A stretch of DNA of 49,960 bases, from the IMG/VR virus record IMGVR_UViG_3300013014_000617, positions 1 through 49,960 of that record. One strand, given 5' to 3'. Below, piece by piece: positions 1 through 31,470 of the stretch (position 1 is its first letter; the number at the start of each line of letters is the position of its first letter). Source of the stretch: a virus. The notes under the pieces were generated by a model. It was not told the DNA's origin. It did no database searches and saw nothing but the letters and a program-made list of their open reading frames with translations. The position numbers and the translations under genes were made by a program.

Positions 1-2648
1 CGGAACAGGACAGAACAACAGTTGTCCCGACGGTAGCAACCACATCTGGAGGATTTGCAGGAGCGTTCCAATGGGGACCTGTAGAAGAAGTAACAACTGT
101 AGATTCAGAAACAAATTTAGTTAATGCTTTTGGTAAACCAAATGACACTACTGCTGGTTATTTCTTTACCGCAGCAAATTTCTTGTCGTATGGTAATAAT
201 TTACAAGTAGTTCGTGTTGTGGATAAAGGCGTTGCAAGAAACGCTGTTACTAGACCTTCTGGTATAGTTACTGGGGTTAATATTCCTGCAAATAATACAA
301 ACGACAGTATATATTTTACCTCTACTGCAAATTTAACCGCCCTCTTTGACATAGATACATTTGTTATTACTCGCGCAACAGGCACTCCGGTTTTAAATAC
401 TAGTAATGGAAAAGTAGTAAGCCTAATAGTTTCATCTACAGGGTTTGGATATAATACTGCTCCTACCGTTACTTTAGTAGGTGGTTCTCCTACAAGTACA
501 GCAACTGCAACTGCAACACTATCAAGCGGACAAGTATCTAATATATTTGTACTAGACGGTGGTAATAATTATACCACATCTTCTAATGTTGTAATACAAA
601 ATCAAGATTCAACATCTGCAAGAGCCAATCTGGTATTAAGATTCAAGATGAGAGATGCGAATATTTCTGTCATTGGATCCAATTACGATTCTAATGCAAA
701 TATCGTATTCTCTGGTAATATTGACGCTACAGGTGTACATGCTACAGCAAATCTAGTTATTACCAATGGTAATATTACTGGGGTAACAATAGTAACACAG
801 GGTAATGGTTACATTGGCGCGCCAAACGTAACAATTAATAGAAACAGCGCAAACACTGGAACAAATGCAACCGTAGTTGCAAACGTTGCATATGGTTATA
901 TTAATAGTATAACTATTGATAACCCAGGTATTGCTGGATATTTCTTTGTCCCTAACGTGACAATTAATAAAAATAATCAATTAGGTGGCACAAATGCTGC
1001 AGTTCAAGCTCGTATTAGTGCATACGTTAGTACATTAACTTTAACTGCAAATGGATATGGTTATATATCTACTCCTTCGGTACAAATTACCCCGGCAGCA
1101 GACGATTTAAATTATATTACTGCAAACGTTGCAGCAAATGTTGTAGTTAAATACCCTTTACAATCTGTTACTATAGTAAATGCAGGTTCTGGATATACTT
1201 CTAATGCAAATACTGTTTCTATTTTATCTAGTAATATAGCAGTATTAGAAACTACGGCAAATATATCTTTAGCTCCTCCTGTTATAACTAACGGTGATAA
1301 TTTTATTGCTAGTTATTCTACAGGTGGTCTAGCGTTTGGAGAATTTTCAGCAAGATATCCTGGTGCTTTAGGAAACTCTATTAAAGTTTCTATGGCGGAT
1401 TCCGCAACTCATAGCACATGGCTGTATAAATCTCAATTCGATGGTGCGCCTAGTACATCTGCTTATGTTAGTGGTAAAAGCGGGTCGAATGATGAACTAC
1501 ATATTTTAGTTATAGATGCGGATGGATCTTGGTCAGGTACCGCAGGTACAGTATTAGAAAAATATGCATACGTATCTAAAGCATCGGATGCTAAAAATAG
1601 TGATGGTTCTACTAACTATTATAAAAATGTAATTAATAATCAATCCGAGTATATCTGGTCTTTGGATCACCCAGAATCAGGTACATCTTGGGGTAACGAA
1701 GCCAAAACAACAACATTCGGAAGCTTAACAGCTAACATAACAACTACATTGAGTGGCGGTGTTTCTGGGGATAGCGTTTCTACAGGAAATGTTTCAACAG
1801 GTTATGCATTGTTCTCAAATGACGAATTGTACGATGTTGGCTTAATTCCAATGGGTCCAACAACTGCAGTATCTGCTGTTAATGCGGTAATTGCTATTGC
1901 GGAAACAAGAAGAGACGCTGTAGTATTTGCTTCTCCTCCTTATGCGGATATTGTTAACACAACAGGACAAGCCGACAAACTTGTTACTTATAGAAACCAA
2001 TTAACATCTTCATCTTATGCAGTGTTAGATTCGGGTTGGAAGTATCAGTATGACCGATATAACGACAAGTACAGATATGTTCCTTTAAATGGTGACATTG
2101 CTGGTCTTGCAGTAAGAACTGATCTAGTAGCAGATCCTTGGTTCTCTCCTGCAGGTTATAACAGAGGCGTGGTTAAGAATTTAGTTAAATTAGCTTATTC
2201 TCCATCCAAAACAGATAGAGACACTCTATATAAGAGCGGAGTCAATCCTGTAGTAACATTCCCGGGTCAAGGCACATTGTTGTTTGGAGATAAGACTCTT
2301 CTAGCAAGACCAAGTGCATTCGACAGAATCAATGTTCGCAGATTGTTTATTGTTCTTGAGAAGTCTATCGCAACTGCGGCAAAATTCCAGTTATTTGAAT
2401 TCAACGATCCATTCACAAGAAATCAATTTAAGAATATTGTAGAACCATTCCTAAGAGACGTACAAGGTCGCAGAGGCATTACAGATTTTAAAGTAGTTTG
2501 TGATGAAACTAATAATACACCCGCAGTCATAGACAGAAATGAATTTACTGCAGATATTTTTATCAAACCATCAAGAGCTATTAATTTTATTCAGTTAAAT
2601 TTCATAGCAACAAGAAGCGGTATTTCTTTCGAAGAAGTCGGCGCTTAA
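1..2648 (+). CDS. gp18: Tail sheath protein gp18 (5' end outside window)
   Basis: This is the contractile tail sheath subunit, which polymerises around the tail tube and contracts at infection. The open frame runs in from base 3 with no start codon, so the N terminus lies upstream. The visible N-terminal part has the gp18-like run F-A-G-A-F-Q-W-G-P followed by a SET-LV-FG-P stretch. The conserved sheath segment ARYPGALGNSIKVS appears near base 1350, and the C-terminal domain (about 2250-2640) has RRLFIVLEKSI and ends FIATRSGISFEEVGA. At more than 880 residues it is longer than T4 gp18 (about 660). The extra length is a run of about seven ~40-residue repeats at about 411-1280. The tail tube gene follows 12 bases downstream, as in T4. 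The identity is firm; the repeat insertion is the unusual part. Confidence 0.93.
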   Translation, partial: EQDRTTVVPTVATTSGGFAGAFQWGPVEEVTTVDSETNLVNAFGKPNDTTAGYFFTAANFLSYGNNLQVVRVVDKGVARNAVTRPSGIVTGVNIPANNTNDSIYFTSTANLTALFDIDTFVITRATGTPVLNTSNGKVVSLIVSSTGFGYNTAPTVTLVGGSPTSTATATATLSSGQVSNIFVLDGGNNYTTSSNVVIQNQDSTSARANLVLRFKMRDANISVIGSNYDSNANIVFSGNIDATGVHATANLVITNGNITGVTIVTQGNGYIGAPNVTINRNSANTGTNATVVANVAYGYINSITIDNPGIAGYFFVPNVTINKNNQLGGTNAAVQARISAYVSTLTLTANGYGYISTPSVQITPAADDLNYITANVAANVVVKYPLQSVTIVNAGSGYTSNANTVSILSSNIAVLETTANISLAPPVITNGDNFIASYSTGGLAFGEFSARYPGALGNSIKVSMADSATHSTWLYKSQFDGAPSTSAYVSGKSGSNDELHILVIDADGSWSGTAGTVLEKYAYVSKASDAKNSDGSTNYYKNVINNQSEYIWSLDHPESGTSWGNEAKTTTFGSLTANITTTLSGGVSGDSVSTGNVSTGYALFSNDELYDVGLIPMGPTTAVSAVNAVIAIAETRRDAVVFASPPYADIVNTTGQADKLVTYRNQLTSSSYAVLDSGWKYQYDRYNDKYRYVPLNGDIAGLAVRTDLVADPWFSPAGYNRGVVKNLVKLAYSPSKTDRDTLYKSGVNPVVTFPGQGTLLFGDKTLLARPSAFDRINVRRLFIVLEKSIATAAKFQLFEFNDPFTRNQFKNIVEPFLRDVQGRRGITDFKVVCDETNNTPAVIDRNEFTADIFIKPSRAINFIQLNFIATRSGISFEEVGA
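411..1280 (+). repeat. Tandem ~40-residue beta-type repeats within the sheath
   Basis: About seven degenerate protein repeats are encoded back to back. Each has a V-x-x-I/L-x-I strand, then G-x-G-Y (variants N-N-Y, S-N-Y, A-G-Y), then a P-x-V-T-I strand and an Ala/Thr/Asn-rich tail. The clearest copies are GYNTAPTVTL, GYIGAPNVTI, GYFFVPNVTI, GYISTPSVQI and GYTSNANTVSI. The repeats diverge at DNA level, so this is an old protein duplication rather than a recent DNA repeat. They interrupt the sheath core between its N-terminal domain and the ARYPGALGN segment, where a surface domain is tolerated in sheath proteins. Confidence 0.8.
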
Positions 2649-2660
2649 TAGGAGACCCAA

Positions 2661-3242
2661 ATGGCATCAACTTTCGACGTATCAGCATTTAGAAGTAAAT
2701 TAAACGGCGGTGGCGCAAGACCGAATCAGTTTGAGGTAGTCATTAGATATCCAACGGTTCTCGGCGGCATAGCTGGCGATGTGGGAAGATTTTTAATAAC
2801 TACTGCAGAATTGCCTGGTCAGACACAGGGCGTTACTCCTGTTTATTACAGAGGTCGTTTAGTTAAATTAGCAGGCGATAAAGAGTTCGCGCCTTTCAGT
2901 TGTTCTATAATTAACGACAATAATTTTACTATCAGAAACTCTTTGGAAAATTGGATGAATTATATTGAGGATAGAGTTACCAAAGCAGGCGAACAAAGCC
3001 CACAAAGATATCAATCTATAATCGATATTTACCAATTGGATCGTAACGGTAATACTTTAAGACAATATAAATTAAGAGACGCCTTTCCTGTGGAAATAGG
3101 ACCCGTACAATTAGATTTTGGTAGCAATGATCAAATTTCAACATTTGGTGCAACATTTCAATATCAGACATTTGATATTATTACTACACCCGCATCAGCC
3201 GCATTAAACTCAGTAGCTGGTCAAGGCGCAGTTATACAATAA
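2661..3242 (+). CDS. gp19: Tail tube protein gp19
   Basis: This is the subunit of the inner tail tube through which DNA passes. The 193-residue length is close to T4 gp19 (163). The N terminus carries RSKLNGGGARPNQFEV, the middle has ITTAELPGQTQG and GDKEFAPFSCSI, and the C-terminal part has QLDFGSNDQISTFGATFQYQ, all typical of T4-like tube proteins. The ATG follows a clear AGGAG ribosome site and sits directly between sheath and portal genes, the conserved T4 order. No late promoter is visible in the 12-base gap, so it is probably cotranscribed with the sheath gene. Confidence 0.93.
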   Translation: MASTFDVSAFRSKLNGGGARPNQFEVVIRYPTVLGGIAGDVGRFLITTAELPGQTQGVTPVYYRGRLVKLAGDKEFAPFSCSIINDNNFTIRNSLENWMNYIEDRVTKAGEQSPQRYQSIIDIYQLDRNGNTLRQYKLRDAFPVEIGPVQLDFGSNDQISTFGATFQYQTFDIITTPASAALNSVAGQGAVIQ

Positions 3243-3261: not shown

Positions 3262-4827
3262 ATGGCAGTTAAGCTATTTGGCTTTACCTTTGGTCGTGAT
3301 GATGCAGATGATCAACCGATAACGAAGAACAAACAGGGATTCGCTACACCGATATTAGATGATGGCGCATCTACTGTACAGGCAGGCGGTTATTTTGGTA
3401 CATATGTTGACTTAGATGCAACTACAAAGTCTGAGTATGAGCTGATTACTCGTTATAGAGAAGCAGCATTATACCCGGATACTACCGCAGCTATTGATGA
3501 AATTTTAACTGAGGCAATTGCAGCAATTGATGACGAGGCAATTGTCAAAGTAAATTTGGATCAGCTTGATATTCCTGATGATATCAAAGATACCATTGAA
3601 AAAGAATTCGATGCAATATTACAGTTGTTAGATTTCAACGATAAAGGATATGATATCTTTAGGCGTTGGTATGTGGATGGTCGATTATATTTTCAAAAGA
3701 TTATTGATACGCAAAACCCAAGAAGAGGGGTTTTAGAGCTTATTCAAATTGATCCGAGAAAAATTAAAAAATTACGTGAGATTAAAAAAGAGAAAGACAG
3801 AGATACCGGCGTTGATTTAATTAAATCTGTTGATGAATTTTTCGTTTATAATGATAAAGGGTTAACGTATAATCCAACCTATTCTAGTACTGCGAATCAA
3901 GGTATTAGAATAAACCCAGATGCAATTTGTTTCGTACCATCTGGTCTATTGGATTATGATAAGAACATAGTAATTGGTCATTTACACAGGGCAATTAAGC
4001 CTGTTAACCAATTAAAGATGATGGAAGATGCATTAGTTATTTACAGAATAGCTAGAGCACCGGAGAGAAGAATATTTTATATTGACGTAGGTAATTTACC
4101 TAAGTTAAAAGCTGAGCAATATCTAAAGGATATTATGGCTCGCTATAGAAATAAAATTGTGTATGATTCAAGCACGGGTGAAATTAGAGACGATCGTAAG
4201 ATGATGTCTACACTTGAGGACTTTTGGTTGCCTAGAAGAGAAGGTGGCAGAGGTACAGAAATTGATACGTTGGCAGGCGGAGAGAATCTTGGTCAGATTG
4301 AAGATGTGAATTATTTTCAAACTAAATTATATCAGGCATTGAATGTTCCTTTGTCAAGAATGCAACCGCAGACAGGTATCTCGTTTGGTAGGGCGACTGA
4401 GATAACTAGAGATGAGTTGAAGTTCGCGAAGTTTGTTGGTAGATTGCGAAAGAAGTTTAATGAATTGTTTACCGATTTATTAAGAACGCAACTATTACTA
4501 AAAGGTGTATTGACTGATAAAGACTGGTACGTTATAAAGGATAAAATCCAATATAGATATACACAGGATCAGTATTTTGAAGAAATGAAAGATGCTGAGA
4601 ATATGAGAAACAGAATTGATTTGTTAATGCAAATTCAACCTTTCGTTGGTGCATATTACAGTCAAGATTATGTTATGAAAAATATACTAAGAATGTCGGA
4701 AAAAGAAATTGCAGCAATGAAGACTCAGATAGAAGCTGAACCTCCACCGCCGCAAATTGGTATGCCGGGTATGCCGCCAAATCAACTTCCGCCAGGACAA
4801 GATCAACAGCAGCCGCCACAGCAATAA
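3262..4827 (+). CDS. gp20: Portal vertex protein gp20
   Basis: This is the portal, a dodecameric ring at one capsid vertex that nucleates head assembly and is the channel for DNA packaging. Its 521 residues match T4 gp20 (524). Diagnostic stretches are ELITRYREAALYPDTTAAIDE, RRWYVDGRLYFQKIID, ELIQIDPRKIKKLREIKKE and PLSRMQPQTGISFGRATEITR. The C terminus is a Pro/Gln-rich, low-complexity tail of about 30 residues, probably disordered. The gene lies between the tube gene and the small prohead-core genes, in T4 order. Confidence 0.95.
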   Translation: MAVKLFGFTFGRDDADDQPITKNKQGFATPILDDGASTVQAGGYFGTYVDLDATTKSEYELITRYREAALYPDTTAAIDEILTEAIAAIDDEAIVKVNLDQLDIPDDIKDTIEKEFDAILQLLDFNDKGYDIFRRWYVDGRLYFQKIIDTQNPRRGVLELIQIDPRKIKKLREIKKEKDRDTGVDLIKSVDEFFVYNDKGLTYNPTYSSTANQGIRINPDAICFVPSGLLDYDKNIVIGHLHRAIKPVNQLKMMEDALVIYRIARAPERRIFYIDVGNLPKLKAEQYLKDIMARYRNKIVYDSSTGEIRDDRKMMSTLEDFWLPRREGGRGTEIDTLAGGENLGQIEDVNYFQTKLYQALNVPLSRMQPQTGISFGRATEITRDELKFAKFVGRLRKKFNELFTDLLRTQLLLKGVLTDKDWYVIKDKIQYRYTQDQYFEEMKDAENMRNRIDLLMQIQPFVGAYYSQDYVMKNILRMSEKEIAAMKTQIEAEPPPPQIGMPGMPPNQLPPGQDQQQPPQQ

Positions 4828-6450: not shown

Positions 6451-7596
6451 ATGTCAGTAGAAAGTAAAGTTAAGGAATTGCTAGAAAAAGTAACAGCAAA
6501 AACTTCAGTTATTGAAGAAGAAGCTGGTCCTATGGTTCCTACCAAGCAAAAAGATTCCACAATTAAAGCTGCCAACTCTGGCGATAGTAGTCAGCCAAGA
6601 CAAGGCGATTCACAGGACGCTTCTCACGAAGATCGTGAGGAAACTGCTGTTAACCAAGGAGCAATTACTGCAAAAGGTATTTCCAAAAATACTATTGCAA
6701 TGAAAGGTCCTGTTGGTCAAGCACCAAATTTCACAACAGTAAAAGATCTAAGCCAAATTCCTCAGAATACAGGCATTCATGAAGAAGAAGCTGAAGATGA
6801 AAATCTTGAAGTTGTGGCTGAAGAAGAGGAAATAGAGAATCAGGAAGAAGAGTCAACAGAAACTATTGTTGAACCTATTGATCTTTCTCCAATCTTTGGT
6901 GATGATTTGTCAGAAGACTTTAGAGAAAAGGCAACATCCATTTTTGAAGCAGCAGTTATTGCTCGCGTTAATAACGAAATGGAAAAAGTATCAGAAGCAT
7001 TGGAAGAAAAATATGCTGAAGAATTTACAGAATACAAAGAAGGCGTTGTAGAAAAGATTGACGCTTATCTCAACTATGTTGTTGAGAATTACTTAGAAGA
7101 AAATAAATTGGCTGTCGAGAGTGGTCTTCGTTCGGAAATCGCCGAAGACTTCATGTCAGGTCTAAAGGCTCTATTCAAAGAACACTACATTGAAGTGCCC
7201 GAGGAAAAATATGATGTAATTAGTGAATTGCAAGACAAAGTAACAGAGCTGGAAGAAGGACTTAACGGTCAGTTGGAAAACAATGTTAATTTGAATACCG
7301 AAGTAACAGATCTTAGAAAGAAACTTATTATTAAGGAAATGTCTAAAGATCTTGCAGATACCGAGGCTAGCAAATTAGCAAAACTTCTAGAGGGTGTAGA
7401 GTTCGATAATGCAGATTTTTACAAGGAAAAAGTATCTGTTATTAAAGAAAATTATTTCCCACGCGACGCTATTGTAACAAAAGAATCAGCAAAGCAAGCG
7501 CTTATAGAAGAAACCGCACCGACTGAAGTTTATTCAGGCAACGACGTTGTTTCGACTTATGCACAAGCCTTATCAAGATCAATCAAAAGAACATAA
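6451..7596 (+). CDS. gp22: Prohead scaffold protein gp22
   Basis: This is the main internal scaffold of the prohead, assembled with the capsid protein and then degraded by gp21. It is 381 residues (T4 gp22 is 269), strongly acidic, with a Glu-rich middle (about residues 110-140) and a predicted coiled coil around residues 170-300, including VISELQDKVTELEEGLNGQ. The C-terminal part with LADTEASKLAKLLEGVEF and YAQALSRSIKRT is typical of cyanophage-type gp22. A GGAGA ribosome site lies 7 bases before the ATG and a late promoter lies upstream. Confidence 0.92.
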   Translation: MSVESKVKELLEKVTAKTSVIEEEAGPMVPTKQKDSTIKAANSGDSSQPRQGDSQDASHEDREETAVNQGAITAKGISKNTIAMKGPVGQAPNFTTVKDLSQIPQNTGIHEEEAEDENLEVVAEEEEIENQEEESTETIVEPIDLSPIFGDDLSEDFREKATSIFEAAVIARVNNEMEKVSEALEEKYAEEFTEYKEGVVEKIDAYLNYVVENYLEENKLAVESGLRSEIAEDFMSGLKALFKEHYIEVPEEKYDVISELQDKVTELEEGLNGQLENNVNLNTEVTDLRKKLIIKEMSKDLADTEASKLAKLLEGVEFDNADFYKEKVSVIKENYFPRDAIVTKESAKQALIEETAPTEVYSGNDVVSTYAQALSRSIKRT

Positions 7597-7644: not shown

Positions 7645-8946
7645 ATGTTTTTATCAGAGAATATTCAGCAAAAGTGGTCAGCCATTCTGGATCATCCAGA
7701 CCTGCCACAAATCAAGGACAACTACAAGCGTCAAGTTACTGCTGTATTGTTAGAGAACCAAGAAAAATCTTTACGTGAAGAGCGTCAAGCATTGTTCGAG
7801 ACTCCGGCAAACAACATTAGCGCAACCGCCGGTATTGACAAGTATGACCCAATTCTAATCGGTTTGGTTCGTCGTGCTATGCCTAACCTAATGGCGTATG
7901 ACATTTGCGGTGTACAACCAATGACTGGTCCAACAGGCTTGATCTTCGCAATGAGATCTATATATAAAACTACTCGAGGTGATACTACAAACAGAGTAGA
8001 AGCATTGTTCAACGAAGCAAACACCTCATTCTCTGGTTCTATTCCAGGTACAGGTTCAATACCAGCTCATTCTGGTTCTAACCCAGTACAAGGTACATAT
8101 ACCACAGGTAATGCAGTTTCTACAGCATCCATGGAAGCTGCAGAATCATTTAATGAAATGTCATTCTCAATTGACAAGACTACAGTTACTGCTAAGTCAC
8201 GTGCTTTGAAGGCTGAGTACACTGTTGAATTGGCTCAAGACTTAAAAGCAATTCACGGACTTGATGCAGAAGCAGAATTGTCAAACATCTTGTCACAAGA
8301 ATTCATGTTTGAAATTAATCGCGAAGTTGTTCGTACAATTTACGGCGTTGCCAAAACAGGTTCACCTGCAACAGCAACCGCAGGAACATTTGACTTAGAT
8401 ATTGACTCTAATGGACGTTGGTCTGTTGAGCGTTTCAAAGGTCTGTTGTTTAATATTGAGCGTGATGCTAATCACATTGCACAAGATACTCGTAGAGGAA
8501 AAGGTAACTTCATCGTTTGTTCTGCAGACGTTGCAAGTGCATTAGCTATGTCTGGTGTTCTAGACTATACCCCAGCATTGTCAACCAACTTAAATGTTGA
8601 CGATACAGGCAACACATTCGCAGGTGTATTGAACGGTCGTTTCCGTGTTTACATTGATCCGTATTCTGCAAACCTTGGTGCTGCCAGCCAGTTCTACATG
8701 GTTGGTTATAAGGGTTCTTCTCCTTATGATGCAGGTATGTTCTACTGCCCATATGTTCCTTTACAAATGGTTCGTGCTATCGATCCTAACAGCTTCCAGC
8801 CAAAGATTGGCTTCAAGACACGTTACGGTCTGATTGCTAACCCATATGTTACATCTAGCGATTCTTTATCAGACGCAGATGCAGACAGATTCACAGCAGG
8901 TCGCAACCAATACTATCGCAAGACTAAGGTTGTCAACTTAATGTAA
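7645..8946 (+). CDS. gp23: Major capsid protein gp23
   Basis: This is the major head protein (HK97 fold) that forms the hexamers of the capsid. Conserved T4-like gp23 segments are DPILIGLVRRAMPNLMAYDI, GVQPMTGPTGLIFAMRS, KSRALKAEYTVELAQDLKA and the C-terminal KIGFKTRYGLIANPY. The N-terminal arm is probably removed by gp21 after Glu52, because ALFE followed by TPANN fits the L-x-E cleavage rule. It is 433 residues, shorter than T4 (521) and similar to marine T4-likes. An AAGGAG ribosome site precedes the ATG, and codons look more optimised than in neighbours. A terminator follows. Confidence 0.97.
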   Translation: MFLSENIQQKWSAILDHPDLPQIKDNYKRQVTAVLLENQEKSLREERQALFETPANNISATAGIDKYDPILIGLVRRAMPNLMAYDICGVQPMTGPTGLIFAMRSIYKTTRGDTTNRVEALFNEANTSFSGSIPGTGSIPAHSGSNPVQGTYTTGNAVSTASMEAAESFNEMSFSIDKTTVTAKSRALKAEYTVELAQDLKAIHGLDAEAELSNILSQEFMFEINREVVRTIYGVAKTGSPATATAGTFDLDIDSNGRWSVERFKGLLFNIERDANHIAQDTRRGKGNFIVCSADVASALAMSGVLDYTPALSTNLNVDDTGNTFAGVLNGRFRVYIDPYSANLGAASQFYMVGYKGSSPYDAGMFYCPYVPLQMVRAIDPNSFQPKIGFKTRYGLIANPYVTSSDSLSDADADRFTAGRNQYYRKTKVVNLM

Positions 8947-30453: not shown

Positions 30454-31470
30454 ATGGAACAACAAAAAGTTGCTTTGATTACAGGCATAACCGGGCAAGA
30501 CGGTTCCTATCTTGCAGAATTATTATTATCTAAAGGCTACGAAGTACACGGTATCATTCGTCGTAGCTCTTCTATGAACACAGGTCGCATTGACCACATC
30601 TACAACAATCCAAATTTACAACTTCACTATGGTGACGTAACAGATTCTTTGTCTATTATGAATGTCCTGAAGAAACATAATCCTTCCGAAATTTATAATC
30701 TAGCAGCACAAAGTCACGTTAAGGTTTCATTCGAAACCCCCGAGTATACAGCAACAGTTGACGCATTAGGTACACTTAAAATTTTAGAATCAGTTAGAAT
30801 CCTAAATATGGATAAGACTTGTAAAATATATCAAGCATCTACTTCAGAAATGTTTGGCTTGGTGCAAGAAACTCCGCAAAAAGAAACAACTCCTTTTTAT
30901 CCAAGATCGCCGTATGGCGTAGCAAAATTATATGCATACTGGATTACTAAAAATTATCGTGAATCGTATGATATGTTCTGTTGTTCTGGAATTTTATTTA
31001 ATCACGAATCCCCCCGTCGCGGATTTAATTTTGTTACGAAGAAGATTGTAGATGGATTAGAAGCAATTAGCGCCGGTCGCCAAGAGTGTTTGTATATGGG
31101 TAATCTTAATGCAAAACGAGATTGGGGACACGCTAAAGATTATGTTAAAGCAATGTGGTTAATGTTACAACAAGATAAGCCAGAAGATTTTGTTATTGCT
31201 ACAGGCGAACAGTATTCGGTTAAAGATTTTATTGCCAAATGCGCCCCATACTTTTATTTACATATTAAATGGGAAGGCAAAGGATTGGATGAGGTTGGTA
31301 TTAATGTTAATACCGGTAAAGTCATAGTTAGAGTTGATCCAAAATATTTTAGACCAGCTGAAGTTGAGACTTTACTTGGAGACCCCTCAAAAGCTAAAAG
31401 TGTTTTAGGTTGGTCGCCTGAATATACTTTTGATGCTCTTGTAGAGGATATGTGTATAAATTTTAGTTGA
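30454..31470 (+). CDS. gmd: GDP-mannose 4,6-dehydratase
   Basis: Gmd turns GDP-mannose into GDP-4-keto-6-deoxymannose, the precursor of GDP-fucose. The 338 residues show the NADP motif [45 protein letters not shown], catalytic STSEMFG and [10 protein letters not shown] (Y-x3-K), and [16 protein letters not shown], all characteristic of Gmd. It is followed by GDP-fucose synthase after 6 bases and opens the late-transcribed sugar cluster. Confidence 0.96.

Follow-up and report, generated by a model that had tools for sequence, protein, structure and literature searches.

A beta-repeat array at the domain I site of a T4-type phage tail sheath, probably an expanded gp18 domain I

The 5' end of the window (the whole stretch of DNA analysed here, a virus sequence of 49,960 bases) falls inside a T4-type tail sheath gene (gp18), and an earlier note on this DNA had described a series of beta repeats within the encoded protein. 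What are these repeats, how do they relate to the domains of the T4 sheath, and what could they do on the outside of a contractile tail?

The sheath gene and its repeat array

By its domain matches, the open reading frame at the 5' end is the sheath of a T4-like phage. The following features were located in it and downstream of it:

3-2648, + strand: tail sheath protein of T4 type (gp18 homologue); 881 aa up to the contig edge, which cuts off the 5' end; Pfam, PHROG and PDB matches
57-218, + strand: residues 19-72 of the sheath, N-terminal part of domain III; PF22671 Gp18_domIII_N, E 2.4e-11
1872-2300, + strand: sheath subtilisin-like core domain, residues 624-766; PF04984 Phage_sheath_1, E 1.5e-11
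2310-2603, + strand: sheath C-terminal domain, residues 770-867; PF17482 Phage_sheath_1C, E 2.7e-15
2661-3242, + strand: tail tube protein (gp19 homologue); PF06841 at E 6.9e-6, under the curated cut-off, and tblastn matches to annotated tail tube proteins
3262-4827, + strand: portal protein (gp20 homologue); PF07230, E 3.1e-177
6451-7596: T4-type scaffold
7645-8946: Gp23 major capsid protein

All three sheath families exceeded their own Pfam cut-offs and stood in the conserved order of the sheath core. The top PDB sequence matches of the frame were the T4-type Klebsiella phage sheath 9ev2 and T4 gp18, and the AlphaFold2 (AF2) model of the full sheath (mean pLDDT 82.8, from an alignment of 48 sequences) matched T4 gp18M (3foa_B) at Z 34.3; the identification as a sheath made in the earlier note was thus borne out. 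The sheath of a relative (L002) has 893 aa counted from its methionine. The order of sheath, tube and portal genes is that of T4. Farther along, between 20627 and 49515, many + strand genes resembled a sugar-nucleotide or surface-glycan pathway: a GDP-mannose dehydratase (30454-31467), epimerases, a DegT aminotransferase, a TPP enzyme, nucleotidyl transferases, a HAD phosphatase and a weakly matched glycosyltransferase.

The repeats were delimited within the sheath as follows:

243-1340, + strand: residues 81-446, the expanded domain-I site, 366 residues from anchor to anchor; anchor lengths in 67 sheaths
258-407, + strand: degenerate repeat unit 0, residues 86-135; under the threshold in the window, found in L006, L008 and L009; clade alignment
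408-524, + strand: repeat unit 1, residues 136-174; self-alignment and repeat HMM
525-644, + strand: repeat unit 2, residues 175-214; self-alignment and repeat HMM
645-764, + strand: repeat unit 3, residues 215-254; self-alignment and repeat HMM; with unit 4 matches T4-type sheath domain I
765-890, + strand: repeat unit 4, residues 255-296; self-alignment and repeat HMM; with unit 3 matches T4-type sheath domain I
891-1019, + strand: repeat unit 5, residues 297-339; self-alignment and repeat HMM
1020-1145, + strand: repeat unit 6, residues 340-381; self-alignment and repeat HMM
1146-1271, + strand: repeat unit 7, residues 382-423; self-alignment and repeat HMM

Seven clear beta repeats of ~41 residues occupied residues 136-423 (window 408-1271), in agreement with the span 411-1280 proposed before. 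Pfam coordinates confirmed that the array lies where it had been placed, after the N-terminal part of domain III and ahead of the ARYPGALGN segment. The gapped self-alignment of the repeat region scored 219, compared to a mean of 71.9 and a maximum of 111 in 100 shuffles. An ungapped lag test peaked at the expected lag of 42 (z 3.3), but did not reach significance after correction over all lags (p 0.15), since small indels separate one unit from another. The region was matched, with E down to 4.8e-24, by PHROG profiles of other virion proteins that carry repeats. Each of the seven units scored with a repeat HMM, at i-E between 2e-5 and 5e-11; the HMM was seeded with these same repeats, so these values are not independent. 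After iteration over 45 inserts, its consensus was GTVTSITVTNGGSGYTSAPTVTISANQGSGGTATA.

An eighth unit, at residues 86-135, was detected in three relatives (i-E 4e-3 in L006, 1e-5 in L008 and 9e-2 in L009) and lined up position by position across the clade. Within the group of the window, eight units were found in these three sheaths and seven in the other eight members; the unit missed was always the weak first or fourth one, and its slot was present by length. Therefore, of the description as about seven repeats of ~40 residues, the repeats themselves proved real, while their count became eight, in four likely pairs.

How old is the array? In 308 of 336 tests among seven proteins, a repeat found its best counterpart at the same position of the other protein, and the repeats inside one protein had a mean identity of 29%. 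On these grounds, comparison of the proteins indicates that the eight-unit array is ancient and has preserved its order, rather than being the product of recent duplication. We also considered a recent tandem array at the DNA level and rejected it: Tandem Repeats Finder reported only a 17-base hexamer array in positions 1-2700 and no recent array of a 41-codon unit. An assembly artefact was rejected as well, as the eight-unit layout was present in ten other loci (L001-L010; identities, for example, of 89% for L002/L007 and 62-68% for L003-L006). Among 165 open frames of at least 60 codons in the window, further copies of the repeat were limited to two weak matches (full-sequence E 0.035 and 0.58).

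Variation among sheaths and occurrence in other virion proteins

We compared the window with sheaths from the best 80 of at least 600 loci in viral contigs; 14 of the 80 were dropped from the length counts because they had no start codon before the contig edge, which left 66 and the window, 67 in total, and the counts are not population frequencies. The distance between the anchors was 23-38 residues in 22 of the 67 sheaths (empty sites) and 108-371 in the other 45 (filled sites). At i-E < 0.1, the 45 inserts had one unit (2 sheaths), two (7), three (2), four (21), five (2), seven (8) or eight (3). Insert lengths were periodic at 83 residues, the length of two repeats (R 0.66, a value reached in 0 of 2000 uniform draws), for 35 non-redundant inserts from which near-duplicates had been removed, although these are related by phylogeny and do not form an independent sample. 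Exceptions to the two-repeat steps were L033, with three units, and several inserts of 240-286 residues with only four detectable units.

In a tree built from the core only, the eight-unit group formed one clade (support 0.999), and this clade grouped with four sheaths having no insert and with L024, whose insert has 124 residues (support 0.993). This grouping indicates that the module was gained, lost or resized more than once.

Some sheaths carried material elsewhere. In the sheath of Variovorax phage V45v66 (L092) a repeat pair was present at residues 239-309, well after the YPG segment, at a second insertion site. Two others (L079 and L038) had extra stretches after the YPG segment without a match to the repeat HMM. 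The sheaths of cyanophages P-TIM40 (923 aa, L084) and P-RSM4 (750 aa, L087) are long and had no repeat match at i-E < 0.01; they may carry other material.

The earlier note had suggested looking for the repeat in other proteins, and matches were found both in sheaths of other phages and in neck, baseplate and structural proteins. A Foldseek search of the insert against predicted viral structures gave 39 matches at E <= 0.001; most of the named ones belonged to cyanophages or uncultured phages and were baseplate, fibre or uncharacterised structural proteins. In three contigs with sheaths of four detectable units, the repeat also occurred in frames of 310-312, 253-269 and 858-938 residues, represented by neck gp14-like (L111), gp53-like (L115, L117) and gp8-like (L110) proteins, the gp8 Pfam match of the last being just below the cut-off. 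These four proteins had 2 to 7 repeat copies each. In the three eight-unit contigs searched, the repeat was confined to the sheath, apart from a frame of 462-468 residues in two of these contigs. By profile, the same repeat family includes proteins of the virion in T4-like marine phages (PHROGs 701, 19630, 460, 2885 and 438), although there the repeat is in neck, baseplate or fibre-like proteins and not in the sheath. Judged from these matches, the repeat module decorates more than the sheath.

Relation of the repeats to T4 gp18 domain I

In T4, domain I (residues 98-188) is a six-stranded beta-barrel with a helix, inserted in domain II; it projects to the outside and takes no part in contacts between subunits (PMC3004832). 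By its Pfam and anchor coordinates, the insertion site of the window sheath, after the N-terminal part of domain III, corresponded to the position of T4 domain I (PMC3004832). The view of the array as an inserted repeat domain on a T4-type sheath therefore held with respect to the insertion, while the site is domain I's own and a repeat pair resembles domain I. That this site is on the outer face in T4, as had been assumed, agrees with the outward position of domain I (PMC3004832).

Modelled alone from an alignment of 31 sequences, the insert was predicted as nearly all beta (pLDDT 91.1, pTM 0.73), consistent with the all-beta modules envisaged before. In the predicted models of both the full sheath and the insert, the region did not take the fold of a normal sheath core devoid of a repeated unit. 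Only the sheath of Klebsiella phage KP1 variant Lilla1, one of 974 PDB chains aligned, matched the insert at Z >= 5; its Z of 5.4 falls under the tool's safe level of 8, and the next match had Z 2.6. The aligned part of the Lilla1 sheath was residues 98-187, domain I, which superposed on insert residues 136-216, that is, on sheath residues 216-296, repeats 3 and 4 (70 residues aligned, 2.7 A, 24% identity). The match thus pairs unit 3 with unit 4; the alternative barrel registers are 0+1, 2+3 and so on, or 1+2, 3+4 and so on. On the other hand, a plain Foldseek search of the insert against the PDB returned nothing at E <= 0.001 (the T4 sheath chain 9mkb_AK ranked 38th, E 2.4, probability 0.21), and the insert profile found no relative among PDB sequences up to E 10.

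When profiles of domain I and of the repeats were compared directly, the similarity was weak (E 0.017 to 0.32), with an observed score of 16.7 compared to up to 13.5 in 50 column-shuffled controls. An intermediate was provided by a non-sheath protein of V45v66 (L083:2167-3663, 498 aa) with domain-I-like repeats, first found by its match to T4 domain I. It matched T4-type domain I at E 9.2e-8 over 78 columns (reversed control 0.28), and the same stretch matched a profile of 119 repeat pairs at E 2.1e-4 over 75 columns (reversed control 0.45); the two matched stretches overlap. PHROG 26741 was matched by the domain I of T4 (9.5e-5) and of an Acinetobacter phage (1.3e-5). The V45v66 region matched the same PHROG at 4e-83 and also matched PHROGs 2885, 4406, 438, 460 and 701, all of which match the window insert.

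Compared to T4 gp18 domain I (PDB 3FOA; T4-type sheath 9ev2), the insert has the same insertion site; one repeat pair superposes on domain I at a Z score under the safe level, and the sequence link runs indirectly through V45v66. It differs in that T4 has one barrel with a helix, compared to eight repeats and probably four barrels here, and in that direct sequence similarity to the repeats is marginal. We consider it probable, at roughly two chances in three, that the insert is an expanded T4 gp18 domain I rather than a foreign insertion, in which eight units in tandem replace the one barrel of T4 and present an outward accessory surface. Two repeats of ~41 residues would form one small beta-barrel resembling T4 domain I, and eight units, probably four barrels, would stand in tandem where T4 has one. 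Set in domain II and pointing outward, the insert would form an exposed extra layer that does not enter the contractile core. The wider proposition, that T4 domain I belongs, with its two repeats, to a mobile family of 41-residue repeats found also in neck, baseplate-wedge and sheath proteins, with sheath numbers changing mainly in pairs up to four barrels per subunit, seems to us about evenly poised.

Extra sheath domains as such are already known. The multi-domain 'type 3' sheaths of Evseev et al. 2022 likewise combine a conserved core with additional domains, mostly beta, that lie away from the tube (PMC9230969); their additions are, however, mostly Ig-like, and the word 'repeat' does not occur in the main text (PMC9230969). 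Among the papers listed by our literature searches, none was seen to describe this repeat within a sheath or to treat domain I as a pair of repeats; the new element would be the pairwise-expanded domain I.

Possible roles of the insert

In nine comparisons with the window, dN/dS was 0.15-0.51 for the insert vs 0.08-0.13 for the C-terminal core, a 1.4- to about 5.7-fold difference, with most dS values above 1 and near saturation. In seven more distant relatives, identity was 32-49% in the insert vs 75-86% in the core, the C-terminal core having 75-81%. Such rates indicate that the insert is under purifying selection yet changes more rapidly than the core does, as an exposed surface would be expected to do.

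The insert probably projects from the virion and is probably dispensable for contraction. It would most likely serve as an accessory surface for contacts along the outside of the tail: by the T4 precedent, docking of folded-back tail fibres or of the baseplate, with weak multivalent host adhesion almost as likely. We place docking slightly above adhesion because of what is described for T4 and for one cyanophage. The T4 domain-I mutations G106S, S175F and A178V inhibit retraction of the long tail fibres, and domain I also touches the baseplate (PMC3004832); the long tail fibre of cyanophage A-1(L) is folded back along a groove on the sheath (PMC10966104). In the T4 open reading frame, the mutated letters were found at +1 (G107, S176 and A179), an offset that would fit published numbering without the methionine. 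G107 is the first glycine of the T4 stretch aligned to the GxGY motif of the repeat, and S176 and A179 are in a Ser/Gly turn and the strand following it.

The earlier note had proposed that the repeats clad the tail and bind host glycans or stabilise the sheath. Should the repeats derive instead from general virion adhesion modules that bind glycans weakly along the tail, the likeness to domain I would be secondary. The presence of the repeat in neck gp14-like, gp53-like and gp8-like proteins and in cyanophage structural and baseplate proteins, as a general exterior module, is in line with this possible though rather doubtful origin, as are the fast evolution of the insert and the proposal of Evseev et al. 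that extra sheath domains help adhesion (PMC9230969). Still, no Pfam or carbohydrate-binding family reached its cut-off in the insert (the best weak matches had E 0.07-0.1), although an adhesion domain may go unmatched, no binding site was identifiable in it, and the exact placement of the module at domain I would be left unexplained. An unlikely alternative is that the domain I slot is simply permissive, repeat pairs being gained and lost by recombination with little benefit. Copy number does vary, and L033 with its three units groups with L053, which has four, in the core tree; however, the age and preserved order of the array, its same-position best matches, the purifying selection on the insert and the failure to find a recent DNA-level array all speak against near-neutral change.

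Stabilisation has been proposed in print for extra sheath domains generally (PMC9230969), and adjacent repeat arrays could touch and so cement the extended or the contracted sheath. We regard this as quite improbable. Contacts between neighbours are disfavoured because the 22 empty sites among the 67 related sheaths (from the best 80 of at least 600 loci) have no module there and because divergence is much faster in the insert than in the core; moreover, the domain I of T4 has no such contacts between subunits (PMC3004832).

If the insert is indeed an expanded domain I, then T4 gp18 domain I would be recognised as one form, with two repeats, of a widespread virion module. Sheaths with 0, 2, 4 and 8 units would offer a natural series for probing the role of the outermost domain, and the expansion would explain the wide variation of sheath length among close T4-like phages whose contractile core is constant.
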